From Paramarasmius palmivorus (Eukaryota > Basidiomycota > Agaricomycetes > Agaricales > Marasmiaceae), in contig JAYKXP010000049.1 of assembly GCA_037176845.1 (NCBI GenBank), forward strand, positions 124,001 to 188,000: a DNA stretch of 64,000 nt, in the 5' to 3' direction. The notes below the pieces were generated by a model that was not told the DNA's origin, made no database searches, and worked only from the letters and a program-made list of their open reading frames with translations. The position numbers and the translations under genes were made by a program. Of this stretch, positions 3,824 to 43,944 are shown in pieces (within the stretch, counting starts at the first letter, position 1; the number at the start of each line of letters is the position of its first letter).

Positions 3824-4160
3824 GTCGGGCGCTTGTTTTGGACAGGATGTAGATCACCTCTCTTCGCGAACTCAGTAATTAAGTGTGCCCCTTGACCATC
3901 AGTATGCTCTCTAAAATCTTCAAAAGGCCGATATGTATTCCAGAGCTTCAGGTTGGCGCTGTAGAAGGAGGCCTAAAACTCCGCAAGAAAGCGAAACGAC
4001 TGTCCGTGATAAGCGTATATCTCAGCCAAGAAACACAGATCAGACGAAACCCCATGGGGAAAGGTGGCATGAGAATGATGGGCGCTTGTCTTGTATCCGG
4101 CTTTCCGCAGAACGCCCATCGCAATAGTATACAAAGTCTATGTAAGTGATACCGCTTGAA

Positions 4161-5556
4161 ATGCCCTTCTTACCCCCCGAGCTAATTCCCCCGATTCTCC
4201 AAAATCTCCCAGATGATGCAACGGTCAACAATTGCGCCCTGGTTTGTCGGTCATGGTCCTATATATCCCGCGACATCTCTTTTCACACCCTGGAAATTTT
4301 GCACTGGAAAAGCGGTCTTTCGACAAAGGGAAGAGCCGCAAAAGTCGCCAGGTTTCATTCCCTTTGTGCAAGTCCTTTAGAAACATTTTCGAGCACGAAA
4401 ATCCTCAAACTCGAACTTTCGGATGATTGGGCGGACGAACTAGATGATTGTGATCTGGCAGGACTGCATTGGGAAATCAATGCACTACTGGAGTGGCAGT
4501 CTTCTGAGAAGAGCTTTGCAGGATTGTTTCCGTCTGTGAAGCATATCTCGCTGACCTTCGGGAACGGAAACGTGTCGTGGAGCTCGTTCTCTAGTACAGC
4601 ACAACAAACACTCAGAGGGTTCGTGACTGTCACAGAACTCACCCTGAAGGGCACACGTTTCAGCCCCATCGAGGTTCAGGATCTCATTCATTCTTTCCCA
4701 TTGCTAGAGTCGTTGGAACTCAGTCTTCCTCGCTCCCTTCCCGACCAAATACCCATGACCCTGACTGCCCCACAACCCTGTCCTCTCACACTGGAGAGGA
4801 TATCGATCCATAGCGTACAAGCCTCCCAAGTCATTCTTTCGCTCGTCACCTCCCCATGCCGAATCACCACTCTGCACATTGGAGCCGCCATATTTCTCAT
4901 TCCACCTCAACGGCAACCTCTCCATACCGAGCCCCATTCATACATATCACAATTGCTCCGCACAGTCTCTTTCACCCTTGAGGAACTGAGATGTCACTCC
5001 GGTTACTTCAGAACACGCGAAGTCGGTGAGCATGTTGCCTCTGTTCTCAAAATTTTCCGTCTGTTGCTAAGCTCAAATCTTAGACAGATGTCTTGCACAC
5101 CTTGATCTGAACGGGCTCAACAAGTTACGGCAACTAGAGCTTTATTTCACTCGCATAGATGATGACGCACCATTCCCGTCGTCACTCCTCGATTTCTTCG
5201 ACAAAATCTCACAATACGACAAACCCCCGCGCCTAGAAGTGCTCTCCATACCATATCTTCCCGAGCATGTTCATTTCATGGACATGCAAAAATTCGATGA
5301 GATACTCCAACGACCTTGCTTTTCCTCTCTCCGGCAGCTCAAATGCGAGTTTTTCTGCAGCTACACGCAGAAGGACGTAAGAAAGCAGCACGATTCCGGG
5401 AAGAGGCAATTTCCCAAGCCAGATGAGGATTCTCCCGCTGAGGTAGATCTTCAAAAGCGGATCCAGGACTTCAGGACCGTTCACCTCTGCAAGTGCGAAG
5501 AGCGTGGTATTCTCGTGATGGATATTTACTATGACTACAATCCTCAACCCAAGTAG
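4161..5556 (+). CDS. F-box protein with leucine-rich C-terminal half (left paralog)
   Basis: The first ATG in the conserved frame is at 4,161 and gives MPFLPPELIPPILQNL, an F-box start followed by NNCALVCRSWSYISRDISFHTL. F-box proteins are substrate adaptors of SCF ubiquitin ligases; the remaining ~370 residues form irregular leucine-rich strands that would bind the target. Two exons: 4,161-5,025 and 5,084-5,556, joined by a 58-base intron (GTGAGC donor, TTAG acceptor) that restores the frame into RCLAHLDLNG. The protein is a clear paralog of the gene at 56,329: both share the intron position and the C-terminal KPDEDS...QKRIQ...RGILV block. It lies between two repeat copies. F-box families expand widely in agarics, so the target cannot be guessed. 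Confidence 0.8.
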
Positions 5557-10223: not shown

Positions 10224-12391
10224 TCACGACTGGCCTCTCAGCGCCTTCCCAACCCCAGTGACGAAAGCGACTAAACTCATAGCACCTGGATCCGGCGGCA
10301 ATTCATCGTTCCCTCCGACGTATGTCGCCCTACCCAACTTGGCCGTGAGCTTTGCGGTACCTTCACCGCCAGCACGACACGCTTGTTCGGCATGATCAAA
10401 AGACTTGGACGCAGCGTCCTCTGCCAAAGCCTCAACAAAGGGAATCAATGCATCCATAACTGTTCGATGACCGACCCGTGCCTTGGTGCTCTGTTTTAGG
10501 GTCTCGATAGCCCTGGAGGCAGCAAGACCCCAAAAGGCGATGTCGACAGCCGGGGCTCGACCAGAGGAATCAGATGATGAAGGTGCCAACATCCTGACCT
10601 CCGCAGTCAAAGCAGCGAGGAAAATCGAGTAGATGGCGCCAAGAGTACCACCGCAAGTGTCTGTAAAAACGTCGTTATAGACCGGAATACACAACAAAGA
10701 ATAGAAAGCAAGCGCTCACCATCGATGACTTCTGTTAGCGTGTTCAAAACACCGACCAACTCTCCACTGTCACAAAGGCCGTCATCCAGCGCCTTGAGAA
10801 CGGCCTTGGCACCATTTGCACACGTCTCACCACAATCGCCATCTCCAACAATGGTGTCCCATTTGGTGAGGTCAGGCTCGGCACCTAAAACCTCCAAAGC
10901 GCCTGCACGGATGATATCGCGAAGAGTCGCAGGGTTGACTAGAGGTATCACGAATGCTTTTCAGTCAAGTATGTAGGAGGTGATTCAGAGAGACTTACCC
11001 AATATCTTCCTTTCGCCACCTTCTTTCTGAGTTTCCTTGAGCGCTGCCTCGAGCTCAAATTTCTCGAACCTATCTTCCCGTGGCCGCTGATCTGCATCTG
11101 GGTTTGCTAAGGTACCTCCTGGCCAACCAGCTGCACCATGTGGAGCATCGACAAGAGAAAGAAGGAAGGGAATGTCGGTCTTCAAGTCTGGGTGTGAAGG
11201 AGATTCCGGAGACAAGAGTAGTCTGGAATTGTGGGTAAGGTTCCATAAGGATATTGAAAACCCAGGTGCATTCAGGGAGGTCATGAATGATCCACAGTAG
11301 CTACGTCTGACGCGAACCTTGAGCTTCTCGAGTTGTGTAATCACCTCGTCGATGACCGCATACATCTCAAGCACGCTCATTCCTCCCATGTTATTCACGA
11401 AGAGAACAACTTCGTCTCCCTGACCATTGCCCAAGTGCTCTCCGTAGGTGAAAGGTACGAAAGCTCGTTCCTTATCTTCTTGATTCAAACACAAATCGAG
11501 CATTCGAGCGATGAGCTGGTCTGGCGGAGGTTGATCTACGACGAACACCCCAGGTTCATTGTGGAGACCGAGACCAATTTCTATCTTGCCGGGTGGGATG
11601 ATTGAGTACTGTGAATTGTCGCGACCAGGGACATGGCAGTGGCCAAGGGTGCATGCAATGGAAACTAAGGAGGAAGTAACGGTTCTCCCGAGATGTAGAA
11701 CAGATGAAAAAGAAAGTGAAGCCTCTGAAGCAGCTCCTAGGATCTTGCACACTGGAGACGAGATAGCATAAGCATACTGTCGATGGACAGCAAGTATTTT
11801 GCTCACCTAGAATGACACCAGCTAAAGCACGTCGCCCAACCAATGCTCCTTTTGTACGGCCCACAGACACATCGTCGCCAACTGGAAGAATTGCGATATT
11901 CTCTACTCCGCTAGCGCGAGCTTGTTGGGCAGCAAGTCCGAAATGAAGGTTGTCACCGGCTGAAAAGAGCTTGTCAACAGCGAAAAATAAAGGACTAAAC
12001 AGAGCTCATACTGTAGTTTGTGATTATCACGACGATCCCATTGTTGCTCTTCACTTTGTTGATCGCGCCGAGAACTTGCTTCGCGCTGGGGCTGGCAAAG
12101 GTATCTCCGCTGACGCTGGCAGTCAGGAAACCGCGTCCAACGAAACCCGTCGAGCCTGGTTCGTGACCTATATCATTGGATTTAGATTAATCTAATACAC
12201 AGTAAATCAAGAAAAATTGAGGTCTCACCGGCTCCTCCACCACATATCAATGAGACCTTATTGGGGTCGTGCGATACATGATACACCGTTCGAATAGCAG
12301 GAATGAGTGCAAGGTCAGGATGCGAAGCAACAAGCCCCTTCAGCGATCTCACGACCAGGGTAGAGTGATCTGGGAAGATATGTCGGTCCAT
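10224..12391 (-). CDS. DAK1: Dihydroxyacetone-kinase-type sugar kinase (DhaK+DhaL fusion)
   Basis: ATP-dependent kinase of the dihydroxyacetone kinase family, which phosphorylates short ketoses such as dihydroxyacetone or, in bacterial relatives, erythrulose or apulose. The N-terminal DhaK domain shows LICGGGAG continuing into HEPGSTGF, then GDNLHFGLAAQQARASGV, GDDVSVGRTKGALVGRRALA and GLGLHNEPGV, whose histidine is the residue that binds substrate covalently in this family. The C-terminal DhaL domain has the nucleotide-metal motif VGDGDCGETCANG and GGTLGAIYSIFLAAL. Several short introns separate the exons. The ATG at 12,391 gives MDRHIFPDH, matching the family's N-terminus. It ends head-to-tail with the regulator gene next door, whose stop lies only about 220 bases from this start. 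The yeast enzymes detoxify dihydroxyacetone; the cluster context here suggests a dedicated C3-C5 ketose instead. Confidence 0.9.
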
Positions 12392-12609
12392 TTCAACTTG
12401 TCGGCCATGCTAGTCATTGGATCTTTAAAGTGAAGGTGGAAGGAACTTGGAAGTCGGAGTGAAAGGAGTTCGGACAACGTTCGGGATCATATATTCCCAT
12501 TATCCCGCGTTCCTCTTTCTCTCACAACATGAATCCGAACCAAAGTCCTTGACATAACAGAATTATAGTAATCGTACAATTCAAACATCCACTCAATACA
12601 TCCTAGGAC

Positions 12610-15600
12610 CTACCCAGCCGTCATCCCAGTTCCTATACCCGGGGGAACACCCGGCGGTGTGCCTCCGTTGACCATTCCTCCGGAGTTCATCAAACTTTGT
12701 AGATCGAAATTGTCGGCCGGCTGGATATAGAATCCCTCGACAGAATAACTCGAAAGCAGGTCATCGAGGGAGTAAGAAGCTGATCATGGATGTCAGGGTC
12801 AAACTTACGACAAACTCTGGACGAACATACCTGCATCGGCGGCCTCCTTCGCGATGGAGGCCCTTAGAGATGTTTCCGTAGGGGGCGCGGTATTGTGAGG
12901 AAGATTGGGATCTATTGCTTGTTAACGCACTCAATAGAAAAGATGAGTAGGGGTCGCACTTGTGAACCGCTTCAACAATCCTCTATCCGGTAAAGATATG
13001 AATGTCTTTTTTAATCGTGGTCGCGTATTCAAGTTGATACCCAACCCAACAAGGCCTATATTTCGTTCCTGGGATTAGTACCACACCCCAGTATTTTAGG
13101 AACTCACCTCGAGCCCTTTGCTCTAATATCCCAGATACATACGAAACACCTGCCCAGTAATGCTCCATCTGACCGAGCGCTTTAATCAGTACTGAAAAAT
13201 TCTGCTTCGCCATCGAAGTCAACAAGAGTTCTGCCGTCCGACCCGAATTGTGGCGCTTCAGCGATGGCTCTTGCGAATCATCCATCATATCAGAACCCAA
13301 TGCGGTCAACTTCATGTCCTGAATGAACGATAGACTGGAACCCTTATGAGCGAATGGAAAAGGCGAACAAAAAGCCAACACCGACCATGCAACGTATACT
13401 GGTTGGACGGCATGCGGACTGTAAAGCTACATAAAAATGTCAGCCTCAATCTAACGAGAGAGAAAGTCAAACGGCTTACATATGACTGGCTCGCAAATAA
13501 GTCTGCAAAGACGAGGCATTCGCTGATCGTTCTCGAGCTCGCAAGTGCCAATTTTATAGACCGATCCATTGTTTGCGTCAACGGTGTCTCAGTCCCACTC
13601 GGGCTTGATAGAAGTTCAGGGTGGTAGACAAGGGCCATCACTGCATTGGCCCATAAATGAAGCGTCAGATACGTTCCCTGAAGAATAAACTGAGTCCCGG
13701 AACCCTAACATTCCAATAAAACACCTACTCCATGACCTCTGGCTTCTTGCCTCTTAAACGCTTCCACGCTCCATTTCATCTCCTCTGGCAACTCGGCATA
13801 GAACTGCACTAGCTGAGCTTGTAGACCGCTCAAAACCTCCGTACCCGTTCCCGCTCCAGGCCCGATGAGAGTCCTTACACGTCCGCGTCGCCCGTTGAGT
13901 ACGCTGGCTATCCGACCGCAAAGCACGAGTAATCGTACTAAGTGCTGAAACGGTACGGGTTGGACATCCTCGCCTAATGCTGTTGGGTCATTCGTTCGTG
14001 CGGGATCAGGGAAAAAGTCTTCATCGGTTGGGAGTGGTATCTCGATGATTTCTTCGGAAATGGAGGGTGGGCGGCCAGTTGAGAACGCCAATATTCGATC
14101 CTGCCTCGTGCTTTTCAGTATACTGAAAGGGTTTAATTAATTGAAGACCAACCGTAATAAAGAGGCTCCAGAACAGCAGCCGTGTTCGTACAACATGCGC
14201 CAGCGATTCATATATCTCGGATATCTAAAGAGACCGTCAGATGACCCGGTAAATCATCAAGAAAACCGCTCCAAGGAACCACTAACTTCATGTAATCCGA
14301 GGTCAAGTGCCATCCTAATGGCCATACTACGGTTGCCGCAATGTCATTTTGATGCTTTATGCGTGCGAGGGTGTTGAACTCGGTGACTTACCCGGAATAT
14401 TGCTGTAGAAATCCGATTATCCGAATGAACTAGAAAACAAGAGAATCTCATCCTCACCCACAGACCACTATCAGAGTTCTATGACCATGGAAGTGAGCTT
14501 CAATTTGCAGGAACGAATCGTGCACATACTTGTCCATAATTAGCCCATGCTAACAACAAAAGTCCAGTTACCACGTCCGTGGTCGGTAAGTGTAACAGGG
14601 GTATTATCAACTCCTGCGCCTTAGTGATGAATGGTGCACAAGCCTAGATATCAATGGAAACACGAGTCAACGCGTATGGAAGAAAAATGATTATCCCAAC
14701 TCACGTTTGCTGGTGAATTGCTTCCTGAAGGATGAAACCTGGGTAACTTCAGAAACTGACGAGAACTATGGCAGTGCGAAGCCTACCGTGCGCTGATAGC
14801 GCAGATACCTGTTACCAGAGTGAGAATTTCAAATGATGGTCTTGAAACGAGTAGGCGGACCCACAATTCAACAGGAATGCAGACATAGTCCCGGTCTCAA
14901 GTCGTTCCTCCATCCTCTTTCTGCTGATGCTTGGGAAATGCCGACTCATAGTCCGAAAGAACGTATCCAGCAAGGGTATGTAGACGGAAGGTAGAGGTAG
15001 GCCACTTTCATCGAACATCTGGTCCGGAGGTTCGGGCGACCCAGGTTTTGACTGGGCCGTGGCCATCGGAGCACTGACATTAGACTTCTGAATTCGAGGC
15101 TGTAGCTTGAGAGAGATCCGATTGATTCCTGGGCTGCATGTTCGATGACGTTCAGTAACAGGTGGTTCGAGGACAATGAATGATGCGTACTGAATTGCAG
15201 TCGAACCCGACTATTCCACGGGAGAATGATGATTAACATTTGGAGTTGCTAGATCCCACGAGAAAGACGTACGAAGCGATAGTAGTAAAGTTCCAAGCCT
15301 TCCTGTCGGGTTGGATCCCCATCGATATAGGCAACATTTGATTCGAGTGCGCGTGCTATTTGTGCAGTTTCCTTCTCAGCGGTGTTGCCAAAATGCGAGA
15401 AATTCATGGGTGGTGAGGGTGGTGATACATTCTGAGTTTTGGACTGCGCAGGCCAGATGTACGATGGGGTCAGTAAAGAACCGGGCATGGGGTAATTCCA
15501 CATATTGGCGTGGGGAGACCCAGACATTACGTGCTGTGCGGAGGCTATCGGGGTCGCGTTGGGCTGATAGAAATTTGTTAGGCTTGCTCTCGGAAAATAA

Positions 15601-16143
15601 CAACCGCTCGCTCACCCATAGAGTCGGTGACTCAACAGTAGGTCTATCGGATATGCCAGTATTACTGTAGGAAGTCGAAGGCACAGGTTGGTGAGAGTGC
15701 CTCTGTGGTAGCATTTCCCCAGCACGAGAGTAACCGCCGTTCATGACATCTTGGTGAGTAGGTATATGTTGCATGACTCCAGTGACTGCCGCTTGCGCCT
15801 GTGCCTGTGCGACCGCAGCCTCTCTTTCTCGACGTTCCTCTTCCTCCATTTCTCTCCGGGTTCGTTTTCTCTTCCTTCCTGCAGGCCAAGTACAGACTTC
15901 ACCGACTTTTTGACAGGCATTGCACGTCGGTTTTTCACCCGAACACCTAGCCCGCTTTGCTCGACATCGTAGACATGCTAACGGAACGCGTTTTTCATTG
16001 GCTTGCTGGTCGGCTTGGTGCCCCCTTTGCGGAACATTTGAGGATGGTGTATCCGAAGAGCCGTTCGCCAGAGGAGATTGGTCCGAAGATAAGGATTGCG
16101 GAGAGGTTTTTGAGTATTCCTGGGGTGACCGCGAGTGATCCAT
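12610..16143 (-). CDS. Zn2Cys6 fungal transcription factor, likely cluster regulator
   Basis: The N-terminus carries a Gal4-type zinc cluster at about residues 56-83: CLRCRAKRARC, then SGEKPTC, NAC, QKVGEVC, spacing C-x2-C-x6-C-x6-C-x2-C-x6-C. A basic stretch (RKRKRTRREMEEEERRERE) and an Ala/Gln tract follow. The middle region contains LLDTFFRTMSRHFPSISRKR and METGTMSAFLLNC-like text typical of the fungal-specific transcription factor (MHR) domain. Many short introns break the gene; the C-terminus is Gly/Pro-rich, ending GIGTGMTAG at 12,610. Exon borders in the middle third were not all resolved. It sits between the kinase and dehydrogenase genes of the putative sugar cluster, the usual place for a pathway-specific activator. 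A GGTCCGAACC palindrome-like site lies about 130 bases upstream of its ATG, so autoregulation is possible. Confidence 0.85.
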
Positions 16144-16267
16144 TGGGGTCCGAGTATAAAACTAATCGTCGAGTCTGGTGAAGGAACGGAAAATGGATTC
16201 TTCCCCTTTCCTCTAGTGGCAATGATATTGCGTAAGCATTTCGACCGAAGACCCCGAAGCTTGGCCC

Positions 16268-16283
16268 GATGGTCCGAACCATC
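16268..16283. promoter_or_regulatory. Candidate regulator site (GATGGTCCGAACCATC)
   Basis: Near-perfect dyad 125-140 bases upstream of the zinc-cluster regulator's ATG and downstream of the dehydrogenase stop. It contains GGTCCG, also present in the dehydrogenase/isomerase promoter. Zn2Cys6 proteins usually bind CGG-type half sites as dimers. Binding is inferred, not shown. Confidence 0.35.
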
Positions 16284-16353
16284 TCAAGTTTGCTTTGCAG
16301 AATAGATTACTATATGGTATACCTACTGATACAATACCAAGTGGTACTTTCTT

Positions 16354-17599
16354 TTATGCAATTCCAGCCTCGACATCCTTCTTAAATTGCTCTACAATTG
16401 GCACCATGCCACCCTCATCGACCACGAACCCTAAGCTCAAGGGATATGAATTGTCAAACCGTGCCGGCCAAGATGAGACAATCCGTCGGTTGGTGGGATC
16501 ATCCTTGAACTTGACAAGTTTGAGAGCATCCTTCCCTGCGACCTTCTCCAGTGCCTCCAGTTCCTCACGAACGGTCGTCGTGAAACCAGGTAGGCAAACA
16601 ACCCGAGTGTGTTTGAAGAACTTGTCGGCAGGTACATGTTTCGCAATAACAAAGTTCTTAATCGTGATCTCGGGACTGGCAACCCAAGCGGCAAGATTAA
16701 GTTCGGGTGAGTCTAGCGAGTCACCGATAGGGCAGATAGCCTCAACTCCCTTGAGAGGCTCACGAATGATACCTAGGGAAAATTAGCACAAGCTTGATCA
16801 GCCTCCTGGCATAAGGTTTCCATACCAGATATGAAAGCCGACGTTGCTGCAGATGGAACACCGGGACGGACAACAATCGTAGGAAGACGGATGATACGAC
16901 CATCCACGTAACCTCTTCTTGTGAATTCGTTGACAAGAAGCTCGGAGCTGAGCTTTCCCGTGCCGTATGCGCCTTCAGGAGTGGCAATGGTGTCAGGCTT
17001 CACGACTTCGGGCTGTTTTGTGGTGCCTGTATGTGAATAAGAGACCATGTTAGGTGAGAGGATGACGTACCAGAGGGCCACCATAGACGGCGAGCGAGGA
17101 GGTGAAGACGAACTTGATCGGTGACGAGACTTTGCTACCATACTTTCTGGCAGCTTGGAGCATCTCTCGGATAGAGTCAATGTTGACCTGTATTCATGAA
17201 GAGTTTGGGTGAGTCGGAGACAAGGAACGCATAGTCAACAACGTTTACCTTCAATCCAAGGTCAAAGTTGTCTTCAGATCCACGAGACATGATGCCGTGT
17301 AGACAGTAGATAGTATCGGGGATACCAAACTCAGTGTTGAAAAGTTTGTCGATTTGTGCAGGGTCCGTGAGGTCCGCCTTGAATGTGACGGCCTTTGCGC
17401 CCTGTGGTGTCTTTGGCTCAACGATGTCGGCAAGGATGAAGTGCGGATTCGGCGTCTTGGGGTCCTCGATAAGAGCACCCGAAAGCTAAAATCCACAATA
17501 GTCAGCAACTGGCTCACACGAAAGGGTAAAGCAGAGACGCACGAGGCCACCAAGCCATCCAGCAGCACCAGTAATCAAGACAACACTCTTGTCAGACAT
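16354..17599 (-). CDS. NAD-dependent dehydrogenase, D-erythronate dehydrogenase (DenD)-like
   Basis: Extended short-chain dehydrogenase/epimerase-fold protein. The N-terminus MSDKSVVLITGAAGWLGG has the Rossmann GxxGxxG motif. Then come LADIVEPKTPQGAKAV, a conserved TIYCLHGIMSRGSEDNFDLG, the catalytic-type FVFTSSLAVYGG and the Tyr-x3-Lys pair in GAYGTGKLSSELLVNEF. RIIRLPTIVVRPGVPSAA followed by FISGIIREPLKG is the signature that separates the DenD group, D-erythronate 2-dehydrogenases of tetronate pathways, from other epimerases. The C-terminus runs through RRIVSSWPARFDNSYPLSLG to VEAGIA. About five exons. A TATATAAA-like element on the minus strand lies about 70 bases upstream of the ATG. The gene is divergent from the isomerase gene with a 399-base shared promoter. 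Other members of the group act on different hydroxy acids, so the exact substrate is open. Confidence 0.85.
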
Positions 17600-17998
17600 A
17601 GTAGAGGACGAAGGGCGAGAAACGTGTGTGAAAACAAAGTATAGTATGAAAACATGTCGGTATGTTTTATATACCGGAATATCTCCATGATTTAGGGACT
17701 TCGGAGAGAGGAACCAAGGGGCTTGGAGGCGCCGGAGGACAACAAGTCAGCCGCTCAGGCCGATTAGATGTATCGGTCCGTAAAATCCCACGGACCATTC
17801 CTCCGCCATTTACTTCCATCATCGCGGGCCAAACATAGGTCCTATTTTTTCAACGCCAAACGTAGCCTCGGAATTCCGGGACAAAGTGTCGTTTTATCAT
17901 GGTCCTGGTAGAAAAGAATGAGGAATCTTGCCTCCCAGTCAATCCTCTTTTGATAATTTCGGAACTTGCATCTCTTCTTTCGTATTCACGCTGCAGTA
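17600..17998. promoter_or_regulatory. Shared divergent promoter (dehydrogenase / isomerase)
   Basis: 399 bases between two divergently transcribed cluster genes. It holds a TATA-like element for the minus-strand gene (about 17,665-17,674) and the perfect inverted repeat listed at 17,775-17,796. No other gene is visible. Confidence 0.6.
17775..17796. promoter_or_regulatory. Perfect inverted repeat, candidate operator of the cluster
   Basis: GGTCCGT, eight spacer bases, then ACGGACC: two perfect 7-base arms placed centrally between the divergent dehydrogenase and isomerase genes. CGG/CCG half-sites in inverted orientation are the usual target layout of Zn2Cys6 dimers, and such a regulator is encoded in the cluster. 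Related CGGTCC and CGGACC words occur at 21,316 and 21,405 in the transporter/aldolase promoter. Confidence 0.45.
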
Positions 17999-18613
17999 AT
18001 GGCCATCGATGCGTCTCCTTTGAAATGGCGAGTTGTTGTTGGCGCGGATGTATGTCAGTCATTCAATGTTCCGTATAGAACGCTAATGCCCCGTCTTTGC
18101 TATAGGAAGCTGGGGTTGCATACAAGAACATTCTCAAAGCAGACCTTGAGAAAGACCCTCGTGTTACTCAAGTCATTGACGTCGGGGTCGATACCGACAA
18201 AGACAAGACTGCCTACCCACATGTTGCCGTGACTGCCGCCAAGAAGGTCGCAGCTGGCGAAGCCGATCGTGCCATCCTTATTTGCGGGACTGGACTGGGT
18301 ATGTTTGTATCCGGTCGTTTGTTCATTACCTGTACTAACTGGCGGTATGATTCTACAAGGCGTCGCAATCTCCGCCAACAAAGTACCAGGCATTCGCGCT
18401 GTCACTGCTCACGACAGCTTTTCCGTGGAGCGATCAATTCTCAGTAACGACGCTCAGGTACTCTGTATGGGGCAACGGGTCATCGGTATCGAGCTAGCGA
18501 GGCGCCTGGTCAAGGAGTGGTTGGGTTATGTATTTGACAAGTCATCTCCATCTCAGGCAAAGGTCGAAGCTCTTTCGCAGTATGAAACCGTCCCAGGAGA
18601 CTGCAAATGCTAA
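17999..18613 (+). CDS. RpiB/LacAB-family sugar-phosphate isomerase, 165 aa
   Basis: Aldose-ketose isomerase of the ribose-5-phosphate isomerase B family. Three exons, 17,999-18,049, 18,106-18,298 and 18,360-18,613, joined by GT-AG introns, give an uninterrupted protein. The ATG at 17,999 yields [17 protein letters not shown]; an in-frame upstream codon would add residues that the family does not have. The catalytic-cysteine motif is intact ([20 protein letters not shown]), followed by [19 protein letters not shown] and [12 protein letters not shown]. The HDSFSVERS segment differs from ordinary RpiB (usually a Tyr-x-Ala-Arg-type segment) and resembles the isomerases of tetrulose-phosphate pathways as I remember them. 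Most fungi use the unrelated RpiA for pentoses, so an RpiB gene next to a Dak-type kinase suggests a special substrate such as erythrulose-4-phosphate. Confidence 0.88.
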
Positions 18614-18908
18614 GACACCCTTAATAGAAGTTGCATTGTAATGAACATATTGTTTTTGTAAAGTCCTTCCAACCGGTGGTTTTACATTCTACAGAGTCGA
18701 GCACTTCCTGGTCTATCTGAGATGTCCGAATTGACACATGTAAGTCATTCCTAAACAATGGAAATGGGGTGCTTGAAGGCAGCCACTGAACTATTCGCGC
18801 CTGCATTACTGTAAAACTTGAATTCATTAATTGCGCTAATACATAAGTGCCTACATATACTACTAATGTTTAAGAAATGCATTAAAACAGGGACCTCGTC
18901 GCCTGGAA

Positions 18909-20874
18909 CTAAACACTGGATTCTTCCACTTGCTTAGCACTCTCGTCCAGAGTCGCCGATGGATACTTGGCGAGGAGATACTTGAGGACTTGCGCAAGAA
19001 CCGCTAAAGCAAGAACGAAAGCACTAGAAGAACACTCAATACGCGAGAACGCTGGTGTTGCAATTGAACTTACGTTGTAGTGGCAAACCCTTGAACATAA
19101 CGAGGTCCAGTCCTATCCGGCCATAGGAACGAGCCGTAGATGGAGGCGCTATAACTCAATGATCAGATGTCTTTGCTTAATTCGATCTAACGTATCACTC
19201 ACGAGTTTCCAAGACCATTAACCAGAGCAATAGCAACAGCTCGCTTTTCTGCTGGGAACGGGATGACGCTGGATACCCACTAGAAGCAAGAGAAGTCAGA
19301 TTAGAAAGCGAGGTAAGCAGATGGATCGGAACTCACAAGAAGCGTCAGCGGGCAAGCTGCATATACACCACCGACAGCAAAGCACAAGAATGCATATTTA
19401 GCCTTCTTGTTGTCCACAGCGACAGTGATAATAAACGAAATTCCCGCAATCAAGCTGGCTATCGTGACATAGTTGCCTCTTTCCTTTCTGATATCGGAAA
19501 TGAAGCAAAATACGACGATACTGACGAGGGCGACAGCATAAATGGGGATCGTCATGTATCTATTTAGAGTGAATGTTAACCCTCAAGCTCGACGCGTGAA
19601 ACCAGAGAAAGACGGGACACTCACTGCTTCATATATCCACTATAGCCCAGTTGTCCAACCAGAGTTGGAATGAAATACTGAATGGTCTGAGACCCGGTGG
19701 CCAGCATGTACATCACGGCAAGCATCCAGGTGCGCCAGTCGGTGACAGTCATCTTGAACGCCTCGCCGTGAGTTGGCTCCAATGCTTTATCACCACCAGC
19801 GTTTCCGATACCGTCGTAGGCCAGTCTTTGGGTCGCGATGAACTACGATAAATATTCAAGCCACTTAGCCAACGCTCATTGTTTCACAGTCAACCGACGA
19901 CTTACTCGTTCTTCGGGGGTGAGCCACGTAGTGGTGCTAGGCCAATCAGGTAAAAAGTACCAAGTCACACAGCCTGGGGAAAGTCAAGTCAAGCAGACCG
20001 AGAGGAAAATGGTATGAGACACTAACCAGCAGCCGAAGAAGCAACTCCTTCGATGAGGAGAAGCCATTGCCAGCCCTCGAGACCCCGCGCGTACTTGAGA
20101 TTGTCAGTGATTACTCCGGCAAGGAGTCCTGAGAAAGCACCCTGTAGGACCGCTATGAGACTTACAACTACAGCGAGAAGGAGTCACACTGACCGATACA
20201 GCAGTGGCGGTATAGTATATCGAGAATCGCTTGGCCAATTCGTGACGTTTGTACCACGAAGAAAGATAAAAGGCAACACCTGGAGCGAACCCAGCTTCGA
20301 CTACACCCAAAGCGAAACGAATACCGGCGAGTTGATGCCAGTTGGAAACAGCGGCCATGCAGGCAGCGACAGCTCCCCATAAGAAGCAAAGACCCGAAAG
20401 GCTATGAGTGAGGTCAGGAATAGTGTTGAGCAATATTAACAGCGTTGTCTTACAAGAATGATGGTCTCACTCGCGTGAGGACCATGTTGGCGGGCACTTC
20501 GAAAACAACATAGGAGACCTGGTACAAGATGGCGGTAAGTCAACGAACGACGCATGGTGCACTTGGGCTGAAAATACTCACAAAGAAAACCAAAAGAACG
20601 ACGGAGTATTGAGTAGAAGTCAGCCCTAAGGCTTCTTCCATCCCTCCAGCTTTGGCATTTCCGATGTTGGCTCTATCCAGGTACGAAAGTGTGTACAGGA
20701 CCCAGATAGTGGGAACCTACGCAAAGTTTCATTAATTAAAGTCTAAAATGTAAAGAGACAACGTACAATATGCATGTCAATCTTCCTGACGAGCCTTTTC
20801 TCTGCATCCGACCCGGGAGCATAGGTCATTTGAGAGAACTCTTCTCGCCATTCTTGCTCGGGTTTTTGCACCAT
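18909..20874 (-). CDS. MFS transporter, ACS (anion:cation symporter) family
   Basis: Likely plasma-membrane importer. The ATG at 20,874 gives MVQKPEQEWREEFSQMTY; the next exon carries WVLYTLSYLDRANIGNA, whose DRxNIGNA motif in the first membrane helix marks the Dal5/Tna1-type ACS group of carboxylate and vitamin transporters. Further pieces are RFALGVVEAGFAPGVAFYLS (helix 4) and SWYKRHELAKRFSIYYTA. Many short introns separate single helices. The tail is hydrophilic, ending ESAKQVEESSV at 18,909. It is divergent from the aldolase gene across 613 bases. ACS members usually carry small organic acids, which would suit a sugar acid such as a tetronate feeding the DenD-like dehydrogenase. The substrate is an inference. 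Confidence 0.85.
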
Positions 20875-21487
20875 GTCGGAGTAGGCAAGAATGCGAAGGA
20901 TGAATGCGGGGAAACACGAACCGTGATTATACGCGTCGACCTTTTTGTACACGCGCAAAAGTGGCTGCCGCAGGTAAAATTTGTGGGTGGAACAAATATG
21001 AAGCACAGGAACCAACACCCCGCTGTGGAGGTGCAAACCCCCACCTGGAATTATATCTATCCGGCTGGATCTGGACCCCGAAGTGCCGCATTTGAGGGGT
21101 TGAGCTGGGGAAACTGGGGAACCAGCTTTTCTTTCAACTCTAGAGATTTTATGCTTTGAAGTTTGGATCTACCGTGCAGAAGATGAGCTTGTAAAGTAGG
21201 TACTCCTTGGCAGGAGAGTCTACTTGTCAAGACTTGGTCGAATATCAGCTGACTATCTGGAACGATTGCCAGCGGTATTTTCGATGAGTGGTAACGGTCA
21301 GAAAGTCGGCCGTGCCGGTCCAGAGCGGTCGGCATGGATGTGACGTGTAACGTGACATCTGCCATCCGGAACGATTATGTAATATACTTCCTGCACTCCG
21401 GAAGCGGACCTTGGCCTTCGGAAAACTCTCACTCCTTAAGAACGATGGGAAAGCAAATCCATCTTCCTGGAACGCTCAGTTATCACG
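20875..21487. promoter_or_regulatory. Shared divergent promoter (transporter / aldolase)
   Basis: 613 bases with no gene. It contains several CGG-rich words: CCGGTCC near 21,315, GCGGTCGG just after it, and GCGGACC near 21,404. They match the half-site of the operator candidate at 17,775. An ATG at 21,445 is in frame only until a stop before the true aldolase start, so it is probably 5' leader. Confidence 0.45.
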
Positions 21488-22621
21488 ATGTCGACTCAAG
21501 GACTTGAAGGAAACAGAACTCTGGACATCTTGTACAAGGCTGAGAGGGGTGGATACGGTATTCTCGCTCAGACATGGTGAGCAAACCAGTTCTTGTTTAT
21601 GGCATTGAACTAACACTTGCACAGTTATGATGCTCATTCAGTGATTGGCCTTGTTCGTGCTGCTGAGAGGCTGAAGAGTCCTGCACTTTTGCAACTATTC
21701 CCAGTCACGCTAGCGTATGGAAAGGGTCCTTTTCTTCAGTTCTGTCTCAACGCGTCAGTGATCTTCTCAAAGTATCGAAGAAGACGTGCTGAAAACACAG
21801 CAGGGCTCATGGCGCATCCGTACCCATCGCGGTCCATCTCGATCACGCCACAGATCCTGAGCATATCGAGCTCGCATTAAGTCTCGCTGAGCAGGGGATT
21901 GCATTCGATAGTATAATGGTTGACGCCAGCCATGCAGACGTGAGTATTGTTCTCTGCTTCCTCGCCATCCAGCCGACACGCTTTCTAGAGTGACGAGGAG
22001 AACATTGCAATTGCCAGGCCATATGTCGAACGCGCTCGCAAACTCGGCATCGCAGTCGAAGTTGAACTTGGTCGTTTAGAGGGTGGTGAAGCTGGTCTTC
22101 GTATGATCTCAGACGCCAAGCTCACCGACCCTGCTAAGGCTGTCGAATTCATAAAAGGGCATGTCTTACTGGCATTAGAGTCAAATATGACTACTGATAC
22201 ATCGCAATAGCACCGGCGCAGTGATTCTTGCACCCAGTATTGGCAACCTTCACGGTTCATATATCAACCCACCTAATTTCAGGCAAGACATGTAAGCTCA
22301 CACATTCATTGGGTTCGCGTACCCATGTTGACATACGCGGTTTTTAGTCTTCGAGACCTTCGCTCTATATTCCAAGGCCAAGGTATCCCAATCTGTTTAC
22401 ACGGTACAGACGAACTCCCCGACGAACTCTTCCGAGAATGTGTCAAGAGTGGTGTCAGCAAATTCAATGTCAACTCATGGGCCCGCGATCCTTATGTTAA
22501 GGCACTTACTGCTGCACTTCAGACGAAACCTTTCCCAGACGCTGTCGAGGAGGCGACTGAGGTATTTGCGAGTGTCTGCGAGAGGTTCATTAAGCTATTT
22601 GGATCCGATGGAAAGGCTTAA
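21488..22621 (+). CDS. Class II (metal) ketose-bisphosphate aldolase
   Basis: TIM-barrel, zinc-dependent aldolase of the fructose/tagatose-bisphosphate aldolase family, which cleaves a ketose phosphate to dihydroxyacetone phosphate plus an aldehyde. The ATG at 21,488 gives MSTQGLEGNRTLDILYKAE; then AVHLDHATDPEHIE (metal-binding His), IMVDASHADSDEENIA, AVEVELGRLEGGEAG, SIGNLHGSYINPP (second metal His) and ICLHGTDELPDELF (third), then GVSKFNVNSW. These place it with the shorter GatY/KbaY/AplA-like enzymes, not with yeast-type Fba1, which is longer. Five or six exons; a 47-base intron (GTCAGT donor) precedes RAHGASVPIAVHL. It closes the cluster and would supply its carbon-carbon cleavage step. 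Substrate chain length cannot be read from sequence. Confidence 0.88.
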
Positions 22622-31009: not shown

Positions 31010-32803
<1,794 letters not shown>

Positions 32804-42661: not shown

Positions 42662-43944
42662 ATGCCCGTCAACCCAGTCACCAAACTCAACACCGGTGCT
42701 GAAATGCCCACTGTTGGTCTTGGTATGTGCTCGTTCACTCTGCCTGCTTTAGAGAGTTGACCCTCGGACTAGGCACCTGGAAAAGCGCGCCAGGCGAGGT
42801 CGAGCACGCTGTCGAAGCGTAAGGGGCTAGTGTATCCGTGAAGTGTGTTCTCTGGCTGACGTACGACAGTGCTCTGAGGAACGGCTACAAACACATTGAT
42901 ACCGCCACCGCCTATAGCAATGAAGCTGAGGTTGCCCAAGGAATCAAGGCTTCAGGGGTGCCTAGGGAGAGCTTCTTCCTGACCACCAAGCTCAACAACC
43001 CTGATATGGGTCACCCCAAGGAGGCTTTGGAGTACTCTCTGAAGCAGTTGGATACCCCATACCTTGATCTTTGTATGTCGATTCTTTTGCGCTCGTTATT
43101 GAGACTGAAGGCATTGCTAGGGCTGATGCACTGGCCTGCCCCGATGACCAAGGACGGAAAGGCAGACCATTCGGTACGTTATTCATTTGTGTTATCTTGG
43201 CTAGATCATTCCATTCAACAAATTGAATCGCAGATTGACTGGCTCGACACTTGGCATGAGATGGAAAAACTATACAAGGCGCACCCGGACAAGATCAAGG
43301 CAATCGGAGTTTCCAACTTTTCTATCCCATACCTCGAAAGGCTTCTTGCCAACTCTGAGATTGTTCCTGCTGTCAACCAAATCGAGCTCCATCCGTGCGT
43401 GGCTAACCTTTTCTGTTTCGTTGCTCTGTGCTGAATGTGACGTGCGTAGATCTTGCCCTCAGCAAGCAGTTGTCGACTTTTGCACCAGCAAAGGCATTGT
43501 CGTTACCGCATACTCTCCTCTCGGATCTGACAACTCGCCACTGCTTAAGAATCCCATCGTCAACAAGATCGCTGAAAAGTATGGTGTCGGCCCCGGAACT
43601 GTCTTGATCTCTCTCCAAGCGAACAGGCCCAACGTCAATGGTGCGTGACCAGTCTGTCCAATGCCAATTATTCCTTTATCGTTCTAAATCCCGTTCTTTT
43701 GGTATCACAGTTCTACCGAAATCTGTCAAAAAGGAACGCATCATCGGTGGGTAGTCGTTGAATGTTCGGACAAATTTGCTTGGGGTTTTCTGATGGATGT
43801 TTTGCAGCAAACTTCAAGGTCATCGATTTGACCGACGAAGAGATCAAGGAGTTGAATGATATCTCGAAGACGGCGTCGTTCCGTGCTTGCCACCCCAACT
43901 GGACTGGCTTCACTGATAACTTGGGATTCACTGAGGCAGTTTAG
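42662..43944 (+). CDS. Aldo/keto reductase
   Basis: NADPH-dependent aldehyde/ketone reductase of the AKR superfamily. ATG at 42,662: MPVNPVTKLNTGAEMPTVGL. The catalytic tetrad is present: Asp in GYKHIDTA, Tyr in ATAYSNEAEV, Lys in FFLTTKLNNPD and His in LDLCLMHWPAP. Cofactor and barrel motifs follow: AIGVSNFSIPYLERLL, VPAVNQIELHP, VVTAYSPLGS and LPKSVKKERIIANF. About seven exons. The length of about 300 residues is normal. Related fungal enzymes reduce glycerol-type aldehydes and pentoses; the substrate here is not determined. It is 20 kb from the sugar cluster, so I do not link them. Confidence 0.92.

Follow-up and report, generated by a model that had tools for sequence, protein, structure and literature searches.

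Six genes lie between positions 10224 and 22621 of the window, the 64,000-nucleotide stretch of Paramarasmius palmivorus DNA analysed here, the limits being the stop ends of a kinase gene on the reverse strand (10224) and of an aldolase gene (22621). They had been proposed at these positions by a sequence-only reading of the same DNA and proved to be real; gene models and Pfam domains agree, and every domain in a Pfam search of the six proteins scored above its gathering cut-off. On the reverse strand lie a Dak-type ATP-dependent ketose kinase with Dak1 and Dak2 domains (10224..12391; 626 aa; six exons, 12391-12229, 12167-12012, 11959-11807, 11751-10999, 10938-10720 and 10660-10224), a Zn2Cys6 transcription factor (12610..16143; 868 aa as searched, its middle exons being uncertain) and a DenD-like extended SDR dehydrogenase with an Epimerase domain (16354..17599; 338 aa, five exons). 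The regulator scored 26.9 bits with Zn_clus and 23.7 with Fungal_trans against a cut-off of 23, and its six-Cys array lies at about 15.87-15.98 kb. A divergent promoter region (17600..17998) separates the dehydrogenase gene from that of an RpiB-type sugar-phosphate isomerase on the forward strand (17999..18613; 165 aa; three exons, 17999-18049, 18106-18298 and 18360-18613; LacAB_rpiB). An MFS transporter of the anion:cation symporter type (18909..20874, reverse strand; 468 aa, 11 exons; MFS_1) is separated by a second divergent promoter region (20875..21487), like the first read from the sequence, from a class II FBA-type (PF01116) aldolase on the forward strand (21488..22621; 292 aa; F_bP_aldolase; six exons, 21488-21576, 21625-21753, 21804-21939, 21989-22158, 22211-22291 and 22348-22621), whose gene has a single GC-AG intron at 22159-22210. 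The spliced kinase and RpiB match the public P. palmivorus proteins P0241 and P0001 respectively, each with 100% identity over 100% of the length. An inverted repeat, GGTCCGT-N8-ACGGACC, occurs at about 17775-17796 between the DenD-like and RpiB genes. The four promoter regions of the cluster had no common motif beyond chance (four shared 6-mers and no shared 7-mers, against a control mean of 1.6 in the 6-mer test, with 30 of 300 controls equally high). Among 20 ORFs sampled from the flanks, Pfam recognised an F-box, two tubulin pieces and an aldo/keto reductase, while the remaining 16 gave nothing above the Pfam cut-off; none of the 20 is clearly part of the cluster.

The kinase scored 320.4 bits with Dak1 and 136.3 with Dak2, and passes the TIGR02361 glycerone kinase equivalog model by 2.5 bits (577.5 against a cut-off of 574.95). 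It carries Thr at residue 104, in place of a Lys of E. coli DhaK that we take to belong to the substrate pocket. Thr was found at this position in 112 of 118 aligned relatives and Lys in none, these being the best matches listed of 2067, among which ordinary DHA kinases are absent because the window kinase was the query. Lys104 is present in the species' own Dak paralogue on contig C7, read across an intron; the 68.3 Mb genome holds two Dak1 loci besides that in the window.

The isomerase scored 155.5 bits with LacAB_rpiB and passes the 'ribose-5-phosphate isomerase' model TIGR02133 (199.7 against 168.2), while falling below the DerI model NF051858 (150.9 against 240 bits). P0001, the identical public protein, is annotated at its source as D-erythrulose-4-phosphate isomerase 1. 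Among the 120 best matches listed, the catalytic Cys is kept in all, E. coli His99 is replaced by Ser in all, His10 gives way to an acidic residue (Glu or Asp) in 116 and to Asn in the other 4, and Arg137 is Lys in all, with Arg133 kept in 2. The window RpiB itself keeps the Cys, has Ser for His99 and lacks the ring-opening His and the basic phosphate site of ribose-5-phosphate isomerase B. The role of that His is described in the available text of a study of the Coccidioides immitis enzyme (3qd5, 3sdw, 3sgw), which reports the same active-site changes, namely Ser for the ring-opening His, an acidic residue for the usual His/Asn and Lys as the one basic phosphate contact (PMC3212906). In the same passages only phosphate was modelled in the crystals despite 20 mM ribose-5-phosphate, and the authors suspect shorter-chain substrates. 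The genome has no RpiB match outside the window; an RpiA-like locus elsewhere consists of short pieces with internal stops, three of four above the cut-off. Fungal and actinobacterial rows are intermixed in the RpiB trees, and a single basidiomycete clade was not rejected in a tree test (p-AU 0.426). A Pleopsidium RpiB from a lichen MAG groups with a bacterium.

The aldolase scored 239.4 bits with F_bP_aldolase (PF01116), which places it in the FBA/GatY superfamily; its nearest solved chain is 3pm6. The class II aldolase of bacterial tetronate sets, with which it had earlier been compared, is a different enzyme: that in the window is PF01116 and not PF00596, the family to which OtnC and the FucA/AraD enzymes presumably belong. 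The PF00596 aldolases of this genome lie on other contigs than the cluster, and two further F_bP_aldolase loci were unmatched when P0121, an aldolase 95% identical to that in the window, was searched against the genome with tblastn at 1e-3. Zinc and catalytic residues are kept (among the 120 relatives listed, Asp109 and His110 in 119, Glu174 in all), and the residues that we assume to contact the 6-phosphate of FBP are lost, Ser61 being Phe in 119 of the 120 and Arg331 occurring in none. Tagatose or FBP metabolism was rejected on account of these losses, which also argue against the joining of erythrose-4-phosphate and DHAP to sedoheptulose bisphosphate. Arg331 is present in FbaA, GatY and KbaY and missing from YdjI, which is annotated for an octuluronate-1-phosphate. 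Ser267, which we take to be a contact to the DHAP phosphate, is kept in YdjI and is Asp in 117 of the 120 relatives listed, so that even the use of a ketose-1-phosphate is unsure. In the reading favoured below, the enzyme is a probable ketose-1-phosphate aldolase.

The spread of kinase, RpiB and aldolase genes was followed in other fungi among the best 120 matches of each protein, as far as these carried a species name and a contig. Outside the window species, and among the matches listed, a contig is shared by RpiB and aldolase in 10 of 13 species, by RpiB and kinase in 13 of 20, by aldolase and kinase in 17 of 24 and by all three in 5 of 10. A caveat that applies to these counts is that contig sharing is a proxy for adjacency and a weak one on large contigs. 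Marasmius sp. AFHP31 and M. tenuissimus were treated as one species (RpiB and aldolase shared via one contig, the kinase not shared), as were strains of Schizophyllum commune, counted as not shared. For four chosen species with small contigs, and with genomes of 40 Mb assumed, the joint chance of the RpiB-aldolase sharing is about 1e-9. Close locus tags were seen in Gymnopilus dilepis (RpiB CVT26_001848, aldolase CVT26_001840) and Cutaneotrichosporon (RpiB _0411780, kinase _0411730); Agaricomycetes such as Trametes, Ganoderma and Agaricus appeared among the aldolase matches, but not among the best 120 of 2067 kinase matches. These three genes tend to share a contig in related fungi, but among the matches listed the genes lay on different contigs in 3 of 13 (RpiB and aldolase), 7 of 20 (RpiB and kinase) and 7 of 24 species (aldolase and kinase). 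RpiB and class II aldolases had also been thought unusual in fungi, and both turned out to be common: fungal names stand on at least 35 of the 120 RpiB matches listed, the Pleopsidium lichen MAG included, and on every named one of the 120 aldolase matches listed, and a fungal RpiB structure has been solved from Coccidioides. The grouping of the six genes looks like more than chance.

A parallel is found in bacteria. The 80 best prokaryotic RpiB loci, of at least 489 confirmed, are all actinobacterial by title and encode RpiB proteins 68-78% identical to that of the window. A Dak-type kinase is present at 74 of these 80 loci, mostly directly upstream, whereas no match to the aldolase (query P0121) or to DenD was found at any of the 80, some of which had less than 9 kb of flank. 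This module, whose gene names we take to be DerK and DerI, has the same pairing of kinase and RpiB as the window cluster, but besides the absence of aldolase and DenD its kinases belong to another branch. They are about 25-36% identical to the fungal kinase and carry Gly at position 104 (read in 72 loci), and the three tested reached 717-749 bits with PRK14479, against 383 for the fungal enzyme. At one Kocuria locus (L019) the RpiB-kinase pair is flanked by an RbtT/DalT/CsbX-type transporter, above the cut-off, and by two polyol-dehydrogenase-like proteins, below it; the RpiB of this locus is likewise low on NF051858, at 148.8 bits. A tetritol pathway of Mycobacterium smegmatis is mentioned in the part of PMC12780249 that was available.

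The reading that we favour, with moderate confidence, is that of a tetrulose-phosphate catabolic cluster in which a Dak-type kinase acting on a four-carbon ketose would work together with RpiB and the FBA-type aldolase. The kinase would phosphorylate erythrulose rather than mainly dihydroxyacetone, and RpiB would convert tetrulose-4-phosphate to erythrose-4-phosphate. The passage from tetrulose through tetrulose-4-phosphate to erythrose-4-phosphate, one scheme of the earlier reading, is the best supported because of the contig sharing in fungi, the kinase neighbours in Actinobacteria and the RpiB active site. From a ketose-1-phosphate the aldolase may release DHAP and a short aldehyde that bears no phosphate; this would be formaldehyde if the substrate were L-erythrulose-1-phosphate. 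Uptake and oxidation of the first substrate would fall to the transporter, of an acid-transporter family, and the DenD-like dehydrogenase. That substrate may be a tetritol, a tetrulose or a sugar acid that is decarboxylated to a tetrulose once oxidised to the 3-oxo acid. The Zn2Cys6 protein is a likely local regulator. The genes, their families, the contig sharing of three of them and the active-site residues are established; all substrates and the order of steps we infer. Several observations run against a tetrulose substrate or a joint pathway: the NCBI glycerone kinase and ribose-5-phosphate isomerase models were passed and the DerI model was failed, the single TPI locus of the genome leaves no second one for an L-erythrulose-1-phosphate isomerase, the 80 best bacterial RpiB loci lack aldolase and DenD matches, and the promoters share no motif beyond chance.

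A somewhat unlikely alternative begins with an imported tetronate or pentonate, which the DenD-like enzyme would oxidise to a 3-oxo acid; after loss of CO2 the Dak-type enzyme would phosphorylate the product, dihydroxyacetone from a C4 acid or erythrulose from a C5 acid. The dehydrogenase is nearest to D-erythronate dehydrogenase (NF043036), the window holds the only strong matches to the DenD model in the 68.3 Mb genome, and the transporter is nearest to D-galactonate transporters in both NCBIfam and the PDB, its solved relatives at E <= 0.001 being only 6e9n and 6e9o. Both proteins, however, fall below the NCBI cut-offs (297.7 against 325 bits for the dehydrogenase, of which the nearest solved chain is 2hrz; 189 against 395 with TIGR00893 for the transporter, which scored 126 with MFS_1), and transporters of this type in fungi are diverse in the compounds that they carry. 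The bacterial tetronate pathway is DenD-OtnI-OtnK-OtnC. It has a DenD-like dehydrogenase in common with the window cluster, but its aldolase is of another superfamily and the OtnK family PF07005 (DUF1537-type kinases) had no match in the genome, against 3 of 14 control genomes with one; the location of the PF00596 aldolases likewise counts against this sugar-acid route. The bacterial erythronate route was rejected for want of an OtnK match in the genome. A D-apiose route was rejected because it would require a transketolase-like enzyme together with an isomerase for apiose, and neither is among the six genes.

An erythritol cluster of the Yarrowia lipolytica type, in which erythritol is oxidised to L-erythrulose and passed by a kinase and two isomerases to erythrose-4-phosphate, is clearly unlikely. 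The Yarrowia cluster, which the sequence-only reading did not mention, comprises EUF1, EYK1, EYD1, EYI1/EYL1 and a TPI-like EYL2; in the available text of PMC5992420 and PMC9835291 its kinase is given as a homologue of a putative dihydroxyacetone kinase. Regulator, Dak-like kinase (EYK1 by that description) and RpiB-type isomerase are common to both clusters, but the window adds an FBA-type aldolase, a DenD-like dehydrogenase and an acid-type transporter. No TPI-like second isomerase was found in the window, and in the genome TIM family matches occur at one locus only, on contig C15; the one dehydrogenase of the cluster is DenD-like, and no EYD1-like polyol dehydrogenase was recognised in the cluster, whose flanks were sampled by 20 ORFs. 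The 'complete set' of the sequence-only reading is in these respects not supported. Among the open-licence PMC papers listed in literature searches, none describes a basidiomycete cluster of this make-up, as judged by titles and the beginnings of abstracts, and the accessible parts of PMC11210129 and PMC9781776 hold nothing decisive on the cluster. Since the Yarrowia pairing of kinase and RpiB is known and RpiB and aldolase are common in fungi, the cluster is nonetheless less novel than had been claimed. A peroxisomal methanol-type pathway was rejected, the predicted cluster proteins having no SKL-like C-termini.

That the cluster salvages dihydroxyacetone and pentose phosphates, its kinase being an ordinary DHA kinase, its RpiB acting on ribose-5-phosphate and its aldolase on FBP, is very improbable. 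The TIGR02361 and TIGR02133 cut-offs were passed, but all three active sites are changed, and elsewhere the genome has a Dak protein with Lys104, an RpiA-like locus and further F_bP_aldolase loci. A still slimmer prospect is that of a natural equivalent of the erythrulose monophosphate (EuMP) cycle, a 'new-to-nature' design, with the FBA-type aldolase interconverting DHAP plus formaldehyde and L-erythrulose-1-phosphate and with RpiB linking tetrulose phosphate to erythrose-4-phosphate. That synthetic cycle, like the catabolism favoured here, has a DHAP-dependent aldolase and a D-erythrulose-4-phosphate isomerase, but according to the available text of PMC10733421 it was engineered for formaldehyde uptake, and no LerI-like gene was recognised in the window. 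Were the cluster such an equivalent, it might allow mushroom-forming fungi to fix or give off formaldehyde, lignin demethoxylation being one conceivable source. Slimmest of all is a set of chance neighbours without joint function, for which the unshared contigs and the lack of a promoter motif speak, but against which stand the sharing of small contigs and the adjoining kinase and RpiB of Actinobacteria.

The substrate of fungal RpiB was left open in the passages of PMC3212906 at hand. The sharing of contigs by RpiB and kinase in Agaricomycotina, mirrored in Actinobacteria with a different kinase branch, points to four-carbon sugar phosphates, and the question has become directly testable. The part of PMC10733421 that was available expresses the wish to study how aldolases of this kind and tetritol isomerases occur together in nature, and if the aldolase acts on tetrulose-1-phosphate the present cluster would meet that wish.

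Family scans found all six genes named by the sequence-only reading at 10224-22621 of the window, which lies on contig C49 of the 68.3 Mb P. palmivorus assembly. They comprise a two-domain Dak kinase, an RpiB-type isomerase (17999-18613), a Zn2Cys6 regulator (Fungal_trans barely above cut-off, with the middle exons of the model uncertain), a DenD-like extended SDR scoring under the NCBI DenD cut-off, an MFS transporter whose closest models, the D-galactonate transporters, were under cut-off and whose only solved relatives were 6e9n/6e9o, and a class II aldolase. The RpiB and kinase models matched the public P. palmivorus proteins P0001 and P0241, respectively, at 100% identity from end to end. 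The aldolase is class II as proposed, but of the FBA type (PF01116); bacterial OtnC and FucA/AraD belong to PF00596, which matched two contigs other than that of the window. Its closest solved chain was 3pm6, from Coccidioides, and its gene contains a GC-AG intron at 22159-22210. The divergent DenD/RpiB promoter region carries an inverted repeat, GGTCCGT-N8-ACGGACC (17775-17796), a candidate regulator site. An F-box protein ORF (4146-5102) lies to the left of the cluster. An aldo/keto reductase ORF at 42838-43431 (PF00248, 72 bits), a possible polyol or erythrose reductase, lies ~20 kb from the cluster on the far side of tubulin pieces (31640-32612).

In the pathway proposed as most likely, the kinase and RpiB would be sufficient to convert D-erythrulose to erythrose-4-phosphate, and the aldolase would act on a ketose-1-phosphate, e.g. 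L-erythrulose-1-phosphate. The transporter and dehydrogenase, both assigned below cut-off, suggest a sugar acid as a possible source of the tetrulose. Erythrose-4-phosphate cannot close a furanose ring, so a ring-opening His would be dispensable. RpiB retains the catalytic Cys, and in all 120 relatives listed E. coli His99 is replaced by Ser and Arg137 by Lys, with His10 changed to Glu/Asp in 116 and to Asn in 4, and Arg133 retained in 2. The same active-site changes are described in the accessible text of PMC3212906 for the structure of Coccidioides RpiB, in which phosphate alone was modelled despite 20 mM ribose-5-phosphate (a mixture was not excluded); ribose-5-phosphate did not alter its melting temperature and shorter-chain substrates were suspected. 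Counting against the proposed pathway, the window RpiB passed the NCBI ribose-5-phosphate isomerase model and failed the DerI model, and the kinase passed the glycerone kinase model.

Kinase residue 104 is Thr, where E. coli DhaK has Lys; among the aligned relatives listed, which were retrieved with the window kinase itself as query, Thr was found in 112/118 and Lys in none. The assembly has three Dak1 loci (window, C7 and C71), of which that on C7 carries Lys ahead of NYTGD, provided that the reading crosses an intron, and that on C71 (L099, G000:C71:56500-60500) carries Asn at the DhaK Lys104 position. The aldolase retains its zinc and catalytic residues, with Ser61 changed to Phe in 119 and Arg331 found in none of the 120 relatives listed; YdjI, annotated for an octuluronate-1-phosphate, likewise lacks Arg331. 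A further substitution, Ser267 to Asp (117/120 relatives listed), is absent from YdjI and is possibly a change at the other phosphate site. The excerpted text of PMC10733421 states that FbaA, GatY and KbaY are reported to yield a 3S product, and that cleavage by an aldolase of that type was proposed during erythritol breakdown in two bacteria. Judging by what the paper says of the 3R case, the 3S product made with formaldehyde is expected to be L-erythrulose-1-phosphate.

Elsewhere in the assembly, RpiB matches and strong DenD matches were confined to the window (four other DenD matches scored ~25-27 bits), and an RpiA-like locus on C1 consisted of short pieces with internal stops. Two other F_bP_aldolase loci were not matched by a relative 95% identical to the window aldolase (tblastn, 1e-3). 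TIM matches fell at one locus, and no PF07005 match was found in the assembly.

The suggestion that RpiB and short class II aldolases are unusual in fungi did not hold. Among the 120 matches listed for each, at least 35 RpiB relatives bore fungal names, and the named aldolase relatives were all fungi, mostly Agaricomycetes and Tremellomycetes. Linkage was approximated by contig identity within one species, taken from the homologue lists with the window species left out. By this proxy, among the matches listed, RpiB and aldolase shared a contig in 10/13 species, RpiB and kinase in 13/20, aldolase and kinase in 17/24, and all three in 5/10. Small shared contigs included those of Gymnopilus dilepis (51,257 bases), Mycena maculata (253,731) and Marasmius crinis-equi (27,896); others were multi-megabase, where sharing carries little weight. 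RpiB and kinase lay on different contigs in e.g. Tremella mesenterica, Hymenopellis radicata, Guyanagaster and Tetrapyrgos. The presence of an aldolase relative and absence of a kinase relative in Agaricomycetes such as Trametes, Ganoderma and Agaricus, among the 120 matches listed, counts against a tight unit. Identity to the window kinase, among the matches listed, was 79-47% in named Agaricomycotina and 46-40% in chytrid, ascomycete and smut relatives. A related Dak kinase of Alyxoria varia (P0304) is annotated as a single protein ending in a PF00596 aldolase domain; it is either a fusion or a merger of two adjoining genes, and suggests a kinase-aldolase pairing with an aldolase from another superfamily.

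Prokaryote genomes were scanned with RpiB, and the best 80 of 489 confirmed loci were all actinobacterial by title, with RpiB 68-78% identical to the fungal protein. A Dak-type kinase was present in 74 of these 80, mostly directly upstream of RpiB, and an MFS match in 23; no locus matched the fungal aldolase or DenD (tblastn, E <= 1e-5). At the Kocuria locus L019 the kinase/RpiB pair has as flanking genes those for an RbtT/DalT/CsbX-type transporter (above cut-off) and two polyol-dehydrogenase-like proteins (under cut-off). Three tested bacterial kinases scored 717-749 bits against PRK14479, whereas the fungal kinase scored 383, and thus closely similar RpiB proteins are paired with different kinase branches in the two kingdoms. 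Fungal and actinobacterial RpiB intermix in trees, with E. coli RpiB very distant; RpiB may well have passed between kingdoms, once or more often and in either direction.

The Yarrowia erythritol cluster, as described in the accessible parts of PMC5992420, PMC9835291 and PMC5557077, contains the regulator EUF1, the kinase EYK1, the RpiB-type EYI1/EYL1, a TPI-like isomerase and the dehydrogenase EYD1. On that description the basidiomycete set has in common with it a regulator together with the same types of kinase and isomerase, but is without the TPI-like isomerase and adds the aldolase, the DenD-like enzyme and the transporter. We accordingly regard it as a variation on a known type of cluster.
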